DNA of 40,462 nt from Mycoplasmatota bacterium (lineage in GTDB: Bacteria; Bacillota_I; Bacilli_A; Izemoplasmatales; Izemoplasmataceae), in assembly GCA_030600605.1 (NCBI GenBank), contig JAUVLT010000010.1, positions 1-40,462 on the forward strand, written 5' to 3'. Below the pieces are notes generated by a model, which was given only the letters and a program-made list of their open reading frames with translations, had not been told where the DNA came from and did no database searches. The position numbers were made by a program, and so were the translations under genes. This document shows, piece by piece, positions 23,464 to 38,096 of this stretch. Positions within the stretch are counted from its first letter, which is position 1. Every line of letters begins with the position of its first letter.

Positions 23464-25395
23464 ATGGAGAATACTTTGAATAATTATAATGCTGAATCTA
23501 TTCAAATACTTGAAGAACTTGAAGCAGTAAGAAAGAGACCTGGTATGTATGTTGGTAGTACGGACTCTAGAGGCCTTCACCATTTGGTTTGGGAGATTGT
23601 TGATAATGCAATTGATGAGGTTCTTGCAGGTTTTGGTAACGAGATAATTGTAACTATTAAGGAAGATAATAGTATTATTGTTACCGATAATGGAAGAGGA
23701 GTTCCAGTTGATTTACATCAAAGTGGAAAAAGTGCAATTGAAATAATTTATACAAAATTACATGCTGGTGCAAAATTTGGACAAGCCGGAGGATACAAAG
23801 TATCGGGAGGGCTTCACGGTGTTGGAGCTAGTGTTGTAAATGCACTTAGTGAATTTGTTGATGTTAATGTTTCTCGCGATGGTAAAATTTATAATATGAG
23901 ATTTTCTAATGGCGGACGTGAAATTTCAAAATTAAAGATCGTCGGAGAATCTAAAGAAAATGGAACTACAGTTTGGTTTAAACCAGATTCAGAGATATTT
24001 ATAACGACAGTATTTAATTATCAAATAATGGTGGAACGCTTGAGAGAAAGCGCCTTTTTATTGAAGGGTTTAAAGATAATTTTAATTGATGAAAGATCAA
24101 AAGTTCAAGATGAATTCCTTTACGAAGATGGAATAATATCATTTATTGATTTTATAAATGCTTCAAAAACACCTATACATGAACCGAAATTTTTTGAAGG
24201 TAAGGCATTAGATATAGAAGTAGAAGTTGCTTTTCAATTTACTAGATCATATACGGATCAGTTAATTTCGTTTGTTAATAATGTAAGAACAAAAGATGGT
24301 GGAAATCATGAAACGGGATTTAAATCTGCCTTAACAAAGCTATTTAATGAGTACGGACAAAAAGTAGGGTTGTTAAAAAATGGTAAGAAACTTGAAGGTG
24401 CAGATATTAGAGAAGGATTAACGACAATCTTGTCTGTAAGAATTCCTGAAAATTTATTGCAATTTGAAGGGCAAACCAAGAATAAACTAGGGACACCTGA
24501 TGCTAGAACTGCTGTAGAACAAATTGTTTCAGAAAAGATGACTTACTTTTTCGAAGAAAATAACAACTTAACATATACTTTAATTGAAAAATCATTGAAA
24601 GCTCAAATGACGAGAGATGCAGCAAGAAAAGCTCGTGAAGAAGCTCGCTTAGAAAAAAGAAAAAGTAAAATTGAAACTAATCTTTCAGGTAAGTTATCAC
24701 CAGCCCAAACAAAGAATCCTGCTAGAAACGAATTGTATTTAGTGGAAGGTGATAGTGCAGGAGGAAGCGCTAAACAAGGACGCGATAGAAGATTCCAAGC
24801 AATACTTCCTTTACGTGGAAAAGTAATCAATACCGAAAAAGCTAAAATTGAAGATGTACTTAAGAACGAAGAAATTAATACAATTATACATACCATTGGT
24901 GCAGGATTAGGTCCTGATTTTGATATTAATAAATGTAATTACTCAAAAGTAATAATAATGACTGATGCTGATACGGATGGGGCTCACATTCAAGTATTAC
25001 TTTTAACTTTCTTTTTCAGATATATGAGAGAGTTAGTAGAAGCAGGTAAGGTATATATTGCACTTCCACCATTATACAAAATTTCTAGAAAAGTCAAAGG
25101 GAAAAATGTATATGAATATGTATGGACTGATGAAGATCTTGAAAGGATTACTAGTCAATATAAGAATTTTTCAATTCAAAGATTTAAAGGTTTAGGTGAA
25201 ATGAACGCGATTCAATTATGGGATACAACAATGGATCCAACTACCAGAACTTTAATTCAAGTAAACATTGATGATTTAGCTGATGCTGATCAAAGAATTA
25301 CTATACTAATGGGAGACAAAGTTGAACCTAGACGTGACTGGATTGAAGCTAATGTTGAGTTTGGTAGCGAAGATGACTTTGTAATAGGGGATTAA
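23464..25395 (+). CDS. parE: DNA topoisomerase IV subunit B
   Basis: ATPase subunit of topoisomerase IV, which decatenates daughter chromosomes. The 643-residue protein has the GHKL ATPase (EIVDNAIDE, TDNGRGVPVD, GGLHGVGASVVNAL), a transducer domain and the TOPRIM domain (LVEGDSAGGSAKQGRDR from about residue 426; MTDADTDGAHI). Pairing with parC and the plsY neighbour favour ParE over GyrB. The ribosome site (AGGATG) is weak; an out-of-frame ATG overlaps five bases upstream. The parC start follows the stop by two bases. Confidence 0.96.
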   Translation: MENTLNNYNAESIQILEELEAVRKRPGMYVGSTDSRGLHHLVWEIVDNAIDEVLAGFGNEIIVTIKEDNSIIVTDNGRGVPVDLHQSGKSAIEIIYTKLHAGAKFGQAGGYKVSGGLHGVGASVVNALSEFVDVNVSRDGKIYNMRFSNGGREISKLKIVGESKENGTTVWFKPDSEIFITTVFNYQIMVERLRESAFLLKGLKIILIDERSKVQDEFLYEDGIISFIDFINASKTPIHEPKFFEGKALDIEVEVAFQFTRSYTDQLISFVNNVRTKDGGNHETGFKSALTKLFNEYGQKVGLLKNGKKLEGADIREGLTTILSVRIPENLLQFEGQTKNKLGTPDARTAVEQIVSEKMTYFFEENNNLTYTLIEKSLKAQMTRDAARKAREEARLEKRKSKIETNLSGKLSPAQTKNPARNELYLVEGDSAGGSAKQGRDRRFQAILPLRGKVINTEKAKIEDVLKNEEINTIIHTIGAGLGPDFDINKCNYSKVIIMTDADTDGAHIQVLLLTFFFRYMRELVEAGKVYIALPPLYKISRKVKGKNVYEYVWTDEDLERITSQYKNFSIQRFKGLGEMNAIQLWDTTMDPTTRTLIQVNIDDLADADQRITILMGDKVEPRRDWIEANVEFGSEDDFVIGD

Positions 25396-25397
25396 TT

Positions 25398-27911
25398 ATG
25401 GCAAAAAATATTATTGAAGAAATAAATATCTTTGTTGAAGAAAAAATCCTCAAAGAAAATTTAGAGGATATTGTTGGCGAAAGATTTGGACGCTATTCTA
25501 AATATATAATCCAAGATAGAGCATTGCCAGATGTTAGAGATGGATTAAAACCTGTACAAAGAAGAATTTTATTCTCAATGTATAAATTAGGAATGTTTAG
25601 CGATAAACCATATAAAAAATGTGCTCGTATTGTTGGAGACGTAATTGGTAAGTATCATCCTCACGGTGATACTTCAGTTTATGATGCTATGGTTAGATTA
25701 TCCCAACCATGGAAAATTAGAAATTTACTTATTGATATGCACGGTAATAATGGGTCAATAGACGGTGATAGTGCCGCAGCAATGCGTTATACTGAAGCAA
25801 GAATGAGTTTATCTAGTGAAATACTATTAAGAGATATTGATAAAAGAACCGTTGTTTTTGTTCCGAATTTTGATGATGAAGAATATGAACCAGTTGTTTT
25901 ACCAGCTAGGTATCCTAACCTTTTAGTTAATGGATCTACAGGTATTTCAGCAGGATACGCGACTGATATTCCGCCTCACAATTTGAAAGAAATTATCAAG
26001 GCAGTAATAAAAAGAATTGATACTCTTGATATGACAATTGATGATATATTAAAAATTGTTAAAGGGCCAGATTTTCCTACTGGAGCCATTGTTCAAGGTA
26101 AAAATCAAATAAGACAAGCCTTCGAAACTGGTAAAGGTAGAGTAATAATGAAATCAAAATCAGTAATTGAAGATCAACATATAATCATTACTGAAATTCC
26201 ATATGAAGTTAATAAAGCTACTTTAGTAAGAAAAATTGATGATATAAGAATTAAAAAAGGAATCGAAGGAATTTCTGAGGTTCGTGATGAATCAGATCGT
26301 GAAGGATTACGAATTGTAATCGATATTAAAAAAAATGTTAATCCTCAATTTATCTTAAATTTTTTACATAAAAAAACTGATTTATCAAAATCATATAATT
26401 ATAATATGGTGGCTATCAATAATAAAAGACCAACATTAATGGGTATACTACCAATTATTGATGCATATATTTTGCATCAAAAAGAGGTAATAACAAATCG
26501 TTCAAATTATGAATTAAGAAAAGCTCAAAAAAGAGTCCATATTGTTAAGGGAATAATAAAAATGATGGACATCTTAGATGATGTAATCGCTTTAATCAGG
26601 GCTTCAAAGCATAAGAAAGATGCAAAAAATAGACTTATGCGAAAATTCAAATTTACTGAAGAACAATCAGAAGCAATAGTAACATTGCAATTATATCGTT
26701 TATCAAGTACTGATATTAAATCACTTCAGAAAGAAAATGATAAACTTAATATTCAAATTGAGAAGTTAAGTTTAATTCTACATAATGAAGAAGAACTGCA
26801 AACTGTAATAAAAACTGAATTAAAATCGATAAGTAGATTATTATCTACACCAAGAAAATCTGAAATCGAAGAAGAAATTGAAAAAATCACAATATTGGAA
26901 GAAGAATTAGTAATTGAAGAACAAGCTGTAATAGGAATCTCAAGAGAAGGATACATAAAAAGATCTTCAGTTAGATCGTTTAAAGCAACTGATAAGCCAA
27001 ATGTTAAAGAAAATGACTCAATGTTATTCGTTAGTGAAGTTTCTACTCTTGATACAATTCTAATATTTACCGATAAAGGTAACTATGTCTATTTACCTGT
27101 TTATAAGGTATCAGATTCCAAATGGAAAGACTTAGGTACTCACATTAATAATATTGTTCAGTTAGAAGAAAATGAAAAAATTATTAAAATTGTTCATGTC
27201 CATGATTTTAAAGATGATAGATATTTAGTTTTCATTACAAAAGATAATCTTATAAAATTAACAAAACTTGAAGATTTTAATGTTTCAAGATATTCAAAAA
27301 CAATTAAAGCAATCAACTTAAACAAAGGTGATTTACTAGTTAAAGTAGATGTTACTGATTCACTTGATAGTGACTTGCTAATTGTAACTAGAAAAGGATT
27401 AGCTTTAAAATTTAGTTTGGAAGAAATATCGGTTACATCAACAACTGCAAAAGGAGTAAAAGGCCTAAATTTAGCTCCAAAACAAAAGATTGCTTCAGGG
27501 ATAGTATTAAAAGATTATCACGATTTATTAATACTAACACATAGGGGCACTATTAAAAGACTAAGTTTAGAAGATATTCCAAAGAAAAAAAGAACAAATA
27601 AAGGAGTAAAACTTTATAAAGTAGTTAAATCAAATCCATATTTAGTTACTGATCTTTGCTTGATGAATTCAACCCAATACAAGAATCGTGCAAAAGTGTT
27701 TATTAACACTACAAAGATGTTGGTGACTTTAAAAGCATTTGATATAAAAACTGATAAAACTGTTACTGGAAAATCATTTATTAAAACTAAACAGGGAAAA
27801 CCAATATTTATAAATATTGAAGAGTTGGAAACTGATTTAACAATTCCTAATCTAAATGAATATAAGAAGGAAAAGAATATCGATATAGTTCAACAAAAAT
27901 TATTTGAATAA
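25398..27911 (+). CDS. parC: DNA topoisomerase IV subunit A
   Basis: DNA-cutting subunit of topoisomerase IV, 837 residues. The breakage-reunion domain carries RALPDVRDGLKPVQRR (41-56), HPHGDTSVYDAM (87-98) and the catalytic Tyr131 in MRYTEARM. A C-terminal beta-pinwheel with degenerate repeats (from about residue 510) replaces the strict GyrA box, supporting ParC. At the two quinolone-site positions it has Thr92 and Asp96, where Ser and Glu are common. Terminates the operon. Confidence 0.96.
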   Translation: MAKNIIEEINIFVEEKILKENLEDIVGERFGRYSKYIIQDRALPDVRDGLKPVQRRILFSMYKLGMFSDKPYKKCARIVGDVIGKYHPHGDTSVYDAMVRLSQPWKIRNLLIDMHGNNGSIDGDSAAAMRYTEARMSLSSEILLRDIDKRTVVFVPNFDDEEYEPVVLPARYPNLLVNGSTGISAGYATDIPPHNLKEIIKAVIKRIDTLDMTIDDILKIVKGPDFPTGAIVQGKNQIRQAFETGKGRVIMKSKSVIEDQHIIITEIPYEVNKATLVRKIDDIRIKKGIEGISEVRDESDREGLRIVIDIKKNVNPQFILNFLHKKTDLSKSYNYNMVAINNKRPTLMGILPIIDAYILHQKEVITNRSNYELRKAQKRVHIVKGIIKMMDILDDVIALIRASKHKKDAKNRLMRKFKFTEEQSEAIVTLQLYRLSSTDIKSLQKENDKLNIQIEKLSLILHNEEELQTVIKTELKSISRLLSTPRKSEIEEEIEKITILEEELVIEEQAVIGISREGYIKRSSVRSFKATDKPNVKENDSMLFVSEVSTLDTILIFTDKGNYVYLPVYKVSDSKWKDLGTHINNIVQLEENEKIIKIVHVHDFKDDRYLVFITKDNLIKLTKLEDFNVSRYSKTIKAINLNKGDLLVKVDVTDSLDSDLLIVTRKGLALKFSLEEISVTSTTAKGVKGLNLAPKQKIASGIVLKDYHDLLILTHRGTIKRLSLEDIPKKKRTNKGVKLYKVVKSNPYLVTDLCLMNSTQYKNRAKVFINTTKMLVTLKAFDIKTDKTVTGKSFIKTKQGKPIFINIEELETDLTIPNLNEYKKEKNIDIVQQKLFE

Positions 27912-27933
27912 AAAGTAGCGAAAGCTGCTTTTT
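27910..27933 (+). terminator. Rho-independent terminator after parC
   Basis: AAAAAGTAGC (27910-27919) pairs with GCTGCTTTTT (27924-27933) around a GAAA tetraloop, with one G-U wobble. It overlaps the parC stop. Confidence 0.8.
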
Positions 27934-27977
27934 ATTAAATATATTCAAAAAAAGCAACATATGACTATAATAATGGG

Positions 27978-28031
27978 GTAAACATTAGGAAAAAAGCCAT
28001 AAATGTAGTAAAATGAAATTGTAAATGTTAC
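27978..28031 (+). promoter_or_regulatory. Paired GTAA-N3-TTA operator candidates ahead of the Fic-like gene
   Basis: GTAAACATTAG (27978-27988) and GTAAATGTTAC (28021-28031) share the form GTAA-N3-TTA; the second is an inverted repeat next to the ribosome site GAGGTGG. A TATAAT (27966-27971) just upstream of the first could be the -10 box, although its -35 (TTCAAA, 16 bases away) is poor. Two similar words flanking the leader suggest a repressor site, possibly autoregulation by the winged-helix protein encoded next. Confidence 0.4.
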
Positions 28032-28047
28032 GTTTGAGGTGGTTATT

Positions 28048-29121
28048 ATGAATTGCTTGATAAATTTAAATAGAACACAAATTCCTCATGATGTTGTAAT
28101 GTCTTATATTAATATATATAAGTCAATTGGAATAAATAGCTACAATCATGAGGCGTTAAATTCTGATTACTCAGTAATGGTGCGACAAACTATCAATATT
28201 GATACGCATTTTTTCACGAAAATATTTGAAATAAATGTGACAAATGCTAGATTAAAGTCACTTATCTACAAGGATGTTTTACCAAAAAACAAAGATGAAC
28301 GCTTTGTTTTAAATCTGAAAAATGCATTTGCAAAAATTCATGATGAAAATTCTACATTTGAGTTATTACCAAATGAGATTTTTGACTTACTAAAATTTCT
28401 CTATAAAAATATTCTTTCTGATTCTAAATTGCAATTTAGAAAAGTAGCTAAGAAAACTAACAAAATCTCTCTTCTTACAAGTAGTTATACCTCTAAAAGG
28501 GAGAATTTAGATGATTTAATAAAATTATATAAAGAAAGAATGCGAGAAAGTAAGTATGAAGCCTCATTTATTATTGAAAATTTTTATATTGATTTTATAA
28601 ATATTAGCCCTTTTACTGAAAAAAATATGGAAATCGGATTAATTATATTTTATATTTTGTTAATAACAAACCAGTATGAAGTATTTGAATATATTAGTTT
28701 TATGCAATTAATCGCAAAGAATAAAGCTGAATATGAACTAGAAGTTAGAAATGCCTCGTTTAACTGGGATGAAGGATTTAGTCAATTGTTACCATTTCAT
28801 AGATTTATACTAAGAATATCAACATATGCATATGATCAAATTAATGATTTAATCCGTGATTATGAGTTTGATAGTCAATTAAATAAGTCAAATAATGTGG
28901 AAAATACTATTAACAAACTTCCAGATGTTTTTAGTAAAGATGATATAAGGAATGTTCATCCTTACATTTCGGACTCAACAATAAATAGGACTTTAAAGAG
29001 ATTAAGAGATGATGAAAAAATTCGACCACTTGGTAAAGGAAGAAGTGCAAAGTGGATTAAACTATATAGATCAACAAACAAAAAAATAACTTTTGAACAA
29101 CTTGATCTAAAACTTAGGTGA
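28048..29121 (+). CDS. Degenerate Fic-like protein with C-terminal winged helix
   Basis: The ATG at 28048 follows GAGGTGG; a GTG nine bases upstream overlaps that site. The 357-residue protein is mostly helical. Residues about 155-265 follow the Fic fold pattern, but the catalytic motif HPFx(D/E)GNGRxxR reads SPFTEKNMEIGL (187-198): Pro, Phe, Glu and Asn survive, while the catalytic His, both Gly and both Arg are lost, so AMP transfer is not expected. Residues about 295-341 look like a winged helix (FSKDDIRNVHPYISDSTINR, then a GKGRSAKWIKL wing). Ends in TGA 4 bases before nadC. Likely a regulator or adaptor; the Fic assignment is by pattern only. Confidence 0.65.
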   Translation: MNCLINLNRTQIPHDVVMSYINIYKSIGINSYNHEALNSDYSVMVRQTINIDTHFFTKIFEINVTNARLKSLIYKDVLPKNKDERFVLNLKNAFAKIHDENSTFELLPNEIFDLLKFLYKNILSDSKLQFRKVAKKTNKISLLTSSYTSKRENLDDLIKLYKERMRESKYEASFIIENFYIDFINISPFTEKNMEIGLIIFYILLITNQYEVFEYISFMQLIAKNKAEYELEVRNASFNWDEGFSQLLPFHRFILRISTYAYDQINDLIRDYEFDSQLNKSNNVENTINKLPDVFSKDDIRNVHPYISDSTINRTLKRLRDDEKIRPLGKGRSAKWIKLYRSTNKKITFEQLDLKLR

Positions 29122-29125
29122 TAAT

Positions 29126-29950
29126 ATGAATGAAAGAATTGATAAAATAATTATAGATGCAATTAATGAGGATATTCCCACAATTGACATAACAACTGAT
29201 AATTTATTTTCTAATGAATCTAGTGAAGGGATATTTATCGCAAAAGAGAAAGGTATTTTGAGTGGTGTGAATGTAATGAAACGAGTGTTTGAATTACTCG
29301 ATAAAACAATCAATATAAAAATTCTAAATGGCGATAGTATCCTTGTTGAAAAAGGCGATATTATTGCTATAATTAGCGGTAGAACTGCTGCTATTCTAAA
29401 AGGGGAAAGAATCGCTTTAAACATTATGCAACGCATGAGTGGTATAGCTACATTGACCAGTTTGTATGTAAAAGAAACCGGAGAATACAAGGCGAAAATT
29501 TTGGATACTAGAAAGACAACACCCAATTTAAGAATACTTGAAAAGATGGCTGTTGTTCACGGTGGAGGAATTAATCATCGGTTTTGTTTAAGCGATCAAG
29601 TAATGATCAAAGACAATCATATTAAAAGTGCAGGATCTATTAGTTCTGCAGTCTCTATAATTAAATCAAAAATTGACCAAAATATAAAGATTGAAGTAGA
29701 GATTGAAACTTTTGACCAGTTTTTGGAAGCATTGGATACGAATTGTGATATTATAATGCTTGACAATATGAGTAATGAACTTATGAAGAAATGTGTTTTA
29801 GCGAATAGTGATAAACTTCTTGAAGCCAGTGGCAACATGGTACTCGACCGAATAAAAGGTGTTGCTGAAACTGGAGTTGATTTTATTAGTGTTGGGGCCT
29901 TAACACATTCATATAAGTCAATGGATATTAGTTTAAAATTCAATAGATGA
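29126..29950 (+). CDS. nadC: Nicotinate-nucleotide pyrophosphorylase (carboxylating)
   Basis: Quinolinate phosphoribosyltransferase: makes nicotinate mononucleotide from quinolinate and PRPP in NAD synthesis. The 274-residue protein has DTRKTTPNLR (127-136), HRFCLSDQVMIKDNH (151-165), an EVEIET motif and IIMLDNMS. nadA and nadB, which normally make quinolinate and often sit beside nadC, are absent from the window. It lies 4 bases after the Fic-like gene and overlaps the RBS of argS, so all three are probably co-transcribed. Stop is TGA. Confidence 0.95.
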   Translation: MNERIDKIIIDAINEDIPTIDITTDNLFSNESSEGIFIAKEKGILSGVNVMKRVFELLDKTINIKILNGDSILVEKGDIIAIISGRTAAILKGERIALNIMQRMSGIATLTSLYVKETGEYKAKILDTRKTTPNLRILEKMAVVHGGGINHRFCLSDQVMIKDNHIKSAGSISSAVSIIKSKIDQNIKIEVEIETFDQFLEALDTNCDIIMLDNMSNELMKKCVLANSDKLLEASGNMVLDRIKGVAETGVDFISVGALTHSYKSMDISLKFNR

Positions 29951-29958
29951 GGTGCATT

Positions 29959-31611
29959 ATGAATTTACAGAATTTAATTGAAAATATAAAGCAGGAATTT
30001 AAAAATACACTGGTCAATCTAGGGTATTTTTCGGAGGAAACAATAATAGTGATTGATACTCCCAAAGGAAAAGAAAATGGTGATTATTCTACTAATATAG
30101 CTATGAAACTAGCTAGAGTAGCCAAAAAGGCTCCATTAATAATTGCAAAAGAAATCGTTAATCAATTTAACAGAAATAATCTTTTTATTGAAAAAATTGA
30201 AATTGCCAATCCAGGATTTATAAATATCTTTTTGGATAAGTCTTTTTTAACTAATCTAATTACAGAGATTAATAATCAAGGAATTGATTATGGTAATTTG
30301 AATATGGGACATGGAGAACACTATAATATTGAATTTGTTAGTGTTAATCCGACTGGAAGTCTACATATTGGACACGCAAGAGGCGCTTCAGCTGGGGATT
30401 CTATTAGTAGAATTATGAAAAAGGCAGGTTATAAAGTTACAAAAGAGTACTATGTAAATGACGGTGGAAATCAAATTCATAATTTAGCAATTAGTATTGA
30501 TGTTAGATATCAACAATTATTTGGTAAGAAGATAGAGATACCTAAAGATGGGTATCATGGTGAAGAAATTATTGATGCAGCAAAAAAAATAAAAAATAAA
30601 TATAAGGATCGCTTTATAAAAGAAGATGGGTACGAGTTTTTTAAAGATTATGGCGTTAATTCTCTTCTAAAAACACTTAAAAAAGATTTAAGTGATTATG
30701 GTGTTACTTTTGATGTATGGTTCAGCGAAAAAACGCTATATGATAACAAATTAGTGGAAAAAACTGTTACATATTTGATAGAAAACAACTACACTTACGA
30801 GAAAGACGGTGCTATTTGGTTAAAAACTAGTGATTACAATGATGAAAAAGATAGAGTTATTATCAAAAGTGATGGCTCATATACTTATATTACCCCAGAT
30901 ATTGCTTATCATATGAATAAACTTGAAAGAGGATATACAAAACTTATTGATATTTTAGGTGGAGATCATCATGGATACATTAATCGTTTAAAGGCAGCAA
31001 TTGAAATGATTTCTGGAAAAGGCGATTTATTAGAAATTGAAATCCTCCAAATGGTAAAAGTAATCCAAAATGGGAAAGAAGTCAAAATGTCTAAAAGAAG
31101 CGGTAAAGCTATAACATTAAGAGACATTATTGACGAAGTTGGGGTAGATCCAATCCGTTATTTCTTTGCTATGAGGAGTTTAAATACTCACATGGATCTT
31201 GATTTGGATTTAGCTTTAAAGCAAACAAATGAAAATCCTGTATACTATGCTCAATATGCTCATGCGAGAATAAATAGCATCTTTGTAACAGCTGAGAAAA
31301 AAGGATATAATACCAAAAATTTGCCAACAGAATTTACTACTATAACAAGTGAAAAATCATTTGAATTGATTCAAATTTTAGGTAATTATCCAGATACAAT
31401 TAGACAAGCTGCTATTCATAGAGCACCACATAAAATAACAAATTACGTCAATAATTTAGCAAGCGCCTTTCATAGTTTTTATAACGACGAACAAGTAATT
31501 ACAGATGACCACTTAAATACTATGGAACGTTTATCACTGTTAAATGCAACTAAAATAGTACTAAAAGATGCATTAAACTTAGTTGGAGTAAGTGCACCAA
31601 ACAAAATGTAA
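29959..31611 (+). CDS. argS: Arginine--tRNA ligase
   Basis: Class I synthetase for tRNA-Arg, 550 residues. The ATG at 29959 is chosen because GAGGTG (29949-29954) lies directly before it; an in-frame ATG at 29947 precedes the ribosome site. The N-terminal additional domain (about 1-110), the HIGH motif (HIGHARGA, from residue 136), the KMSKR signature (about 375) and the helical anticodon domain ending in a short LVGVSAPNKM-type C-terminus are all present. A small hairpin without T-run follows the stop. Confidence 0.96.
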   Translation: MNLQNLIENIKQEFKNTLVNLGYFSEETIIVIDTPKGKENGDYSTNIAMKLARVAKKAPLIIAKEIVNQFNRNNLFIEKIEIANPGFINIFLDKSFLTNLITEINNQGIDYGNLNMGHGEHYNIEFVSVNPTGSLHIGHARGASAGDSISRIMKKAGYKVTKEYYVNDGGNQIHNLAISIDVRYQQLFGKKIEIPKDGYHGEEIIDAAKKIKNKYKDRFIKEDGYEFFKDYGVNSLLKTLKKDLSDYGVTFDVWFSEKTLYDNKLVEKTVTYLIENNYTYEKDGAIWLKTSDYNDEKDRVIIKSDGSYTYITPDIAYHMNKLERGYTKLIDILGGDHHGYINRLKAAIEMISGKGDLLEIEILQMVKVIQNGKEVKMSKRSGKAITLRDIIDEVGVDPIRYFFAMRSLNTHMDLDLDLALKQTNENPVYYAQYAHARINSIFVTAEKKGYNTKNLPTEFTTITSEKSFELIQILGNYPDTIRQAAIHRAPHKITNYVNNLASAFHSFYNDEQVITDDHLNTMERLSLLNATKIVLKDALNLVGVSAPNKM

Positions 31612-37865: not shown

Positions 37866-38096
37866 TGTAAACCAGTGAAAAAGAATAGTAGTTAATTATC
37901 CTCATGTTTTAGAGAACGATACCTCGGCTGAAAGTATCTACTAAGGGATTAACGAAGACACTTTTGAGGGCTTTTCTGAATATTAGTAGGAAAAGACGTA
38001 ACTCGCGTTAAGAGTTAAGGGCCTAGTAAACTAGGAACTAAGGTGGTACCGCGGAAATATTTTCGTCCTTAAACGTTTGTTTAGGGACGTTTTTTA
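37866..38096 (+). promoter_or_regulatory. T-box riboswitch controlling hisS-aspS
   Basis: The T-box sequence AGGTGGTACCGCGG (38041-38054) includes TGGT for pairing with the uncharged tRNA end. Stem III is CCTAG/CTAGG (38022-38035). Stem I has AGTAG (37887-37891 region) opposite CGAA (37953-37956), the loop-E-like specifier bulge, plus AGAGAA (37911-37916) and GGCTGAAAG (37927-37935) as distal motifs. The specifier segment GACAC (37957-37961) contains GAC (Asp) and overlapping CAC (His); GAC is followed by A as expected. The terminator is CGTCCTTAAAC/GTTTAGGGACG (38064-38089) plus seven T. Confidence 0.93.
38064..38096 (+). terminator. T-box regulated terminator
   Basis: CGTCCTTAAAC (38064-38074) pairs with GTTTAGGGACG (38079-38089) with one wobble, followed by TTTTTTT. 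It competes with the antiterminator built on the T-box sequence just upstream. Confidence 0.9.

Follow-up and report, generated by a model that had tools for sequence, protein, structure and literature searches.

Gene X, located downstream of the topoisomerase IV genes in a 40,462-nt stretch of DNA (the whole of which is called the window), encodes a pseudo-Fic protein with a C-terminal winged helix. From sequence comparisons, we consider it probable that X binds DNA, regulates its own gene, and also sits at an accessory site linked to dif, where it may help XerCD or topoisomerase IV at the chromosome terminus. The surroundings of X point to chromosome-terminus biology, and the mechanism is proposed here with moderate confidence.

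Structure of the X protein

The gene and its two characteristic segments are as follows.
28048–29121, plus strand: gene X, pseudo-Fic domain and C-terminal winged helix, 357 amino acids.
28603–28641, plus strand: codons of the degenerate Fic motif, ISPFTEKNMEIGL (residues 186–198), assigned by alignment with active Fic paralogs.
28885–29067, plus strand: codons of the winged helix, residues 280–340 (NKSNNVENTI...GKGRSAKWIKL), assigned from near-invariant columns and predicted secondary structure.

Pfam and NCBIfam searches gave the gene no name. The window protein had no Fic match in a Pfam search up to E 10, and the curated cut-off was not reached; Pfam Fic matches at E up to 1 were obtained for 17 of 43 X orthologs (best, 4e-6). 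In a profile–profile alignment (hhalign), the X orthologs matched the active Fic paralogs over the full length including the winged helix, with a probability of 99.9 and an E value of 1.8e-36. The AlphaFold2 model of X, built with 66 sequences, has a Fic fold (pLDDT 88.6). Its top structural match by Foldseek and VIA-align was a Fic protein from Bordetella bronchiseptica (Protein Data Bank ID: 8uqu), with a TM score of 0.91 by target length, a Z score of 30.9, and an rmsd of 1.9 Å over 251 residues. The order of helices and strands at the C terminus of the model is that of a winged helix, and in the ortholog alignment this part is far better conserved than the Fic core.

Residues 187–198 of the translated open reading frame are SPFTEKNMEIGL. 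The columns of ISPFTEKNMEIGL align one to one with IHPFxDGNGRxSR of the active Fic paralogs in related genomes, and the His, Gly, and Arg positions of the motif are gone in X. Nearly all the paralogs keep HPFx(D/E)GN(G/K)RxxR, and a few have small variants. The class II inhibitory motif, (S/T)xxxE(G/N), is also missing in X, where the SNAIEG of the paralogs faces non-matching residues. X is a true pseudo-Fic protein, with a dead active site and a retained Fic fold. The motif is gone from the window protein and from every X ortholog aligned or inspected; its loss is fixed among them and is not recent decay. Judged by the lost catalytic motif, X does not appear to be an active AMP-transfer toxin of the FicTA type. 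A preliminary description of this DNA had already read a Fic-like pattern without its catalytic residues at positions 187–198, a Fic fold, and a C-terminal winged helix. The first is borne out by the alignment with active paralogs and the second by the predicted structure and its match to 8uqu; the third is present in the model and near-invariant in the orthologs.

Distribution and gene neighborhood

The neighbors of X in the window are listed below.
23464–25395, plus strand: parE, topoisomerase IV subunit B.
25398–27911, plus strand: parC, topoisomerase IV subunit A, the usual upstream neighbor of X.
29126–29950, plus strand: nadC, quinolinate phosphoribosyltransferase (QRPTase domains), the downstream neighbor of X in only part of the Izemoplasmatales.
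29947–31611, plus strand: argS, probably on the same transcript as X and nadC.

Matches to X were found in 58 of the 61 relatives searched, a few of these being paralogs or fragments. The named X loci belong to Izemoplasmatales, Acholeplasmatales, Anaeroplasmataceae, and other Bacilli bins. An Izemoplasma has been cultured (PMC8397711). Upstream of X, parC is the usual neighbor, in some genomes separated from X by a single inserted gene (in one Izemoplasmatales family, a GLUG-motif lipoprotein gene), and the downstream gene is variable. In Izemoplasmatales, parE–parC–X is followed by differing combinations of nadC, argS, recJ, and apt; in Acholeplasmatales, it is followed by a PHP-domain gene. 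nadC is a frequent, not a conserved, partner of X, and parC is the steadier one.

Several further features of these loci were observed. A PHP-domain gene lies 3′ of X in loci L110, L131, L134, and L276, and 3′ of nadA–nadB in the Izemoplasmatales loci L161–L172. In L010 and L012, the nadC homolog between X and argS has diverged far beyond the adjoining genes (identities of 44 and 38%), as though a different copy had taken its position. A uridine-kinase-like gene (PRK domain, ~550 amino acids) is found between parC and X or just 5′ of X in L271–L274 (families f16 and f22). A long imperfect hairpin with arms like GAGAAGATTATC and GATAATCTTCTC occupies the parC–X gap in several Acholeplasmatales (L110, L114, L129, L133, and L160). 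Elsewhere in the window, a T-box leader was detected at 37866–38073 (Rfam RF00230, 137 bits).

Putative promoter and operator of X

The following features were assigned between parC and X.
27910–27936, plus strand: terminator-like hairpin after parC, read by eye.
27940–27969, no strand assigned: inverted repeat TATATTCA-N14-TGACTATA, candidate X operator, conserved in relatives and overlapping the putative promoter.
27944–27949 (TTCAAA, −35) and 27966–27971 (TATAAT, −10): putative promoter across the X repeat.
28009–28014, plus strand: second putative −10, TAAAAT, kept in relatives with a TTGGAA/TTGAAA-like −35 (upstream regions compared by eye).

Given the terminator-like hairpin after parC, X probably starts its own transcript. 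The half-site of the candidate operator is TGAcTATrTTTA. Where X has a leader of its own, similar repeats with spacers of 11–14 bp also precede it in other genera, families, and orders. Scans of six genomes for a larger regulon with the promoter-type repeat returned matches mostly within genes. One intergenic copy, which may be due to chance, is located between genes for a YhhQ-like transporter and a tryptophanase-like protein, upstream of the latter (L061, ~1948–1974; G000:C4:6947–6973).

The preliminary description had pointed to two words upstream of X, GTAAACATTAG (27978) and GTAAATGTTAC (28021), and to GTAA-N3-TTAC as the operator. Both words exist, but their role as operators did not hold up: a degenerate pattern covering them has five matches in the window against 2.0 expected, with at least five in nine of 100 shuffles, and comparison of the upstream regions showed that they are not conserved 5′ of X even within the genus. 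GTAAA-type words, being near chance level and differing in close relatives, were rejected as operators. The GTAA-N3-TTAC arrangement is likewise not conserved, and it is the different inverted repeat at 27940–27969 that is conserved instead.

The same description inferred that X is a pseudo-Fic repressor that senses a nucleotide and is possibly linked to NAD, acting on an nadC–argS unit or on itself. nadC does follow X in part of the Izemoplasmatales, and in the window it starts 4 bases past the X stop codon, as had been stated. The candidate operator overlaps the promoter of the X–nadC–argS transcript, and a PHP-domain gene comes after nadA–nadB in Izemoplasmatales and after X in Acholeplasmatales; these points also speak for such a sensor. 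Nevertheless, we regard it as very improbable, because many genomes have no nadC at the X locus (there, X is followed by argS, recJ, or a PHP-domain gene), the nadA–nadB promoters have no match to the X repeat where the operon is present, nadA is undetectable in many X-bearing genomes, and the second recurrent site is at dif and not at NAD genes. An NAD regulon of X was discarded, since the nadA promoters are without a site and the repeats 3′ of nadA–nadB–PHP led to dif. The NAD link of X is weak, and what survives of the repressor proposal is that X probably acts on its own promoter.

A related repeat at a fixed distance from dif

Chromosomal dif is usually described as a 28-bp site activated by FtsK. 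A repeat like that of the X promoter recurs 3′ of the nadA–nadB–PHP genes, and beside it is a strongly conserved 25-bp word, TTCCTATAATATATATTATGTTAAC. This word is a dif-like site, of which 51 of 61 relatives have a single copy; a control with the reversed pattern found none. Over an extended length of 28 bases, it has two mismatches to the dif of Bacillus subtilis (PMC3025954). The dif-linked repeat starts at −132 (N11) or −133 (N12) from the dif core in nearly all genomes. Its center is ~118 bp before the dif core on the XerC side (~130 bp center to center), and the sequence around it is much less conserved than the repeat itself. For a repeat with an 11-bp spacer, the dif-linked copy is the sole match in G000 (C69:16304–16338) and in most genomes having one. 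A structured RNA at this position was considered and rejected: an Rfam search at the repeat gave no match, and the two arms agree at half-site position 4 in 12 of 39 cases and disagree in 27, which makes a base-paired stem unlikely. Two other features were noticed around dif, namely a possible second, weaker repeat at about −67, lying between the main repeat and dif, in family f2 and part of f22 only (L222–L226, L243, L244, and L251), and DnaA-box-like words, TGTGGATAA or TGTGGAAA, on both sides of dif, at about −38 (for example, in L179–L188) and about +40 (in most genomes).

The relationship between the two classes of site was analyzed with matrices in both directions. A set of 26 X-promoter repeats, picked by eye, served to build a half-site matrix, with which ~400 bp on each side of dif (~825 bp in total) was scanned. 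In 44 of 45 Izemoplasmatales genomes (counted by us as 22 genera), the center of the best match fell between −121 and −116. The same position was found in 17 of 29 genomes of other X-bearing families and in none of seven genomes taken as lacking X. These seven belong to distant lineages, which makes the co-occurrence a weak criterion; among them, G214 has a remote Fic-like match (E 8.8e-29) that keeps much of the motif, and was counted as having no X ortholog. X-bearing genomes without a recognizable dif-linked site comprise family f10 (0 of 3, with a divergent X), most of f16 (one of five has the site), and some members of f12 and f22. As a control, 12 column-permuted matrices gave 0–2 of the 45 genomes in 11 runs and 13 of 45 in one. 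The reverse matrix covered 12 positions and was made from 78 dif-linked half-sites (consensus, TGACTATGTTTA); it scored above 10 for 24 of the 37 X genes that have a leader of their own and for 1 of the 37 that directly adjoin the gene before them. Half-site positions 9–12, which are outside the first matrix, also agree between the two classes.

The dif-linked repeat might have nothing to do with X and be a degenerate dif that serves as one more Xer-binding site, in view of a TATGTTwA-like word common to the repeat and dif. However, its 8-bp arms are 11–12 bp apart, whereas in dif the 11-bp Xer arms flank a 6-bp central region (PMC5357621), the invariant TGA of the repeat falls outside the dif arms, and the same motif is present in X promoters, which have no dif. 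We consider such an origin highly unlikely. No more credible is an ordinary operator of the gene downstream of dif, which is asparaginase-like in several families: the spacing between the repeat and that gene shifts by hundreds of bases, but the distance to dif is constant within 1–2 bp, and in f22 and f10 other genes follow dif.

X itself is linked to dif in part of the relatives. It lies ~0.3–1 kb before dif in f22 and f16, one gene before dif in f7 and f5, and 7–12 kb from dif in f10. The xerD gene is near X or dif in f22, f16, and f10, and parC is directly 5′ of X or one gene away in f5, f10, and f16. This arrangement looks like an old parE–parC–X–dif–xerD terminus neighborhood, which would since have been spread apart in Izemoplasmatales. 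The γ domain of FtsK was found in 29 of 30 genomes and XerD in 30 of 30. A role of X as their substitute was rejected on this ground, and X would add to the usual machinery.

These data bear on whether X reads both repeats or is an autoregulator only, with another protein reading a similar repeat beside dif. The latter would account for the several X-bearing lineages that have no dif-linked repeat and for the difference in spacers, which are 11–12 bp at the dif-linked repeats versus 11–14 bp at the X promoters; one binding mode for both classes is not assured. On the other side, the half-sites agree at 12 positions, some of them outside the training matrix, each matrix finds the other class of site, X is beside dif in f22, f16, f5, and f7, and the repeat is missing in the seven genomes taken as X-less. 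A second protein at dif is, in our judgment, unlikely, and X itself is very probably the protein that binds both the promoter and the dif-linked repeats.

Proposed function of X

Here, we propose how X may work. X would be a sequence-specific DNA binder, most simply a dimer on the inverted TGAcTATrTTTA repeat. At its own promoter, the site extends over the −35 and −10 elements, and binding there would repress the X–nadC–argS transcript. X would also bind the single chromosomal site that lies on the XerC side of dif, ~118 bp away from the core. The dif-bound X may function as an accessory factor that most likely helps to assemble or time the XerCD–dif complex, and it may also bring topoisomerase IV to dif, so that dimer resolution and decatenation are coupled. 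That X acts on recombination or topoisomerase IV is suggested less strongly than the binding, and we regard it as plausible rather than probable. The idea that X still recognizes ParE is attractive, as active Fic proteins AMPylate ParE. In a more speculative form, to which we give limited credence, a dead Fic protein that kept the ParE recognition of its ancestors would be a DNA-bound dock that holds topoisomerase IV at a set place beside dif and couples decatenation to XerCD dimer resolution in Mollicutes-related bacteria.

If this proposal is true, the terminus machinery would have a new component, namely a dedicated accessory site that keeps a constant distance from dif in related orders and is read by a pseudoenzyme whose gene neighbors those of topoisomerase IV. 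A gene that is near-universal in these lineages would gain a function, and the coordination of decatenation and dimer resolution would become testable outside Escherichia coli. Searches of the open-licence literature for Fic in combination with dif, or for the X protein of these lineages, brought up no paper on such a pairing.

Comparison with known systems

Fic proteins with a C-terminal winged helix, such as 8uqu (of which the N-terminal domain was solved) and SO_4266 (Protein Data Bank ID: 3eqx), resemble X in fold and domain order. The sequence of 8uqu aligns with nearly full-length X, including the wing GKGRxAKW. X differs from these proteins in having neither HPFx(D/E)GNGRxxR nor SxxxE(G/N), and in a winged helix that is far more conserved than the Fic core. 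As in winged-helix regulators, a winged helix is accompanied by a palindrome, here a predicted site, at the protein's own promoter (24 of 37 promoters with their own leader versus 1 of 37). The active Fic toxins Fic-1, Fic-2, and FicY AMPylate ParE/GyrB (PMC7479194). They have the Fic fold in common with X, and their target, topoisomerase IV, is the genomic neighbor of X, which lacks the residues for their known chemistry. X thus exemplifies the reuse of a former enzyme fold, that of Fic, in a predicted DNA-binding factor.

Plasmid cer sites use ArgR and PepA as Xer accessory proteins (PMC5357621). Like ArgR, PepA, and ArcA at cer and psi, X would be a regulator that binds DNA and has another site at a defined spacing from the Xer core, and a site so placed was found in 44 of 45 Izemoplasmatales genomes. 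In contrast to the plasmid systems, the core is the chromosomal dif, the protein is unrelated, and FtsK is also present. In E. coli, XerC targets topoisomerase IV to dif, and MatP, which binds matS, is tied to both the terminus and topoisomerase IV (PMC4865107), as proposed for X. Unlike MatP with its many ter sites, the unrelated X protein would mostly have a single dif-linked site with an 11-bp spacer per genome.
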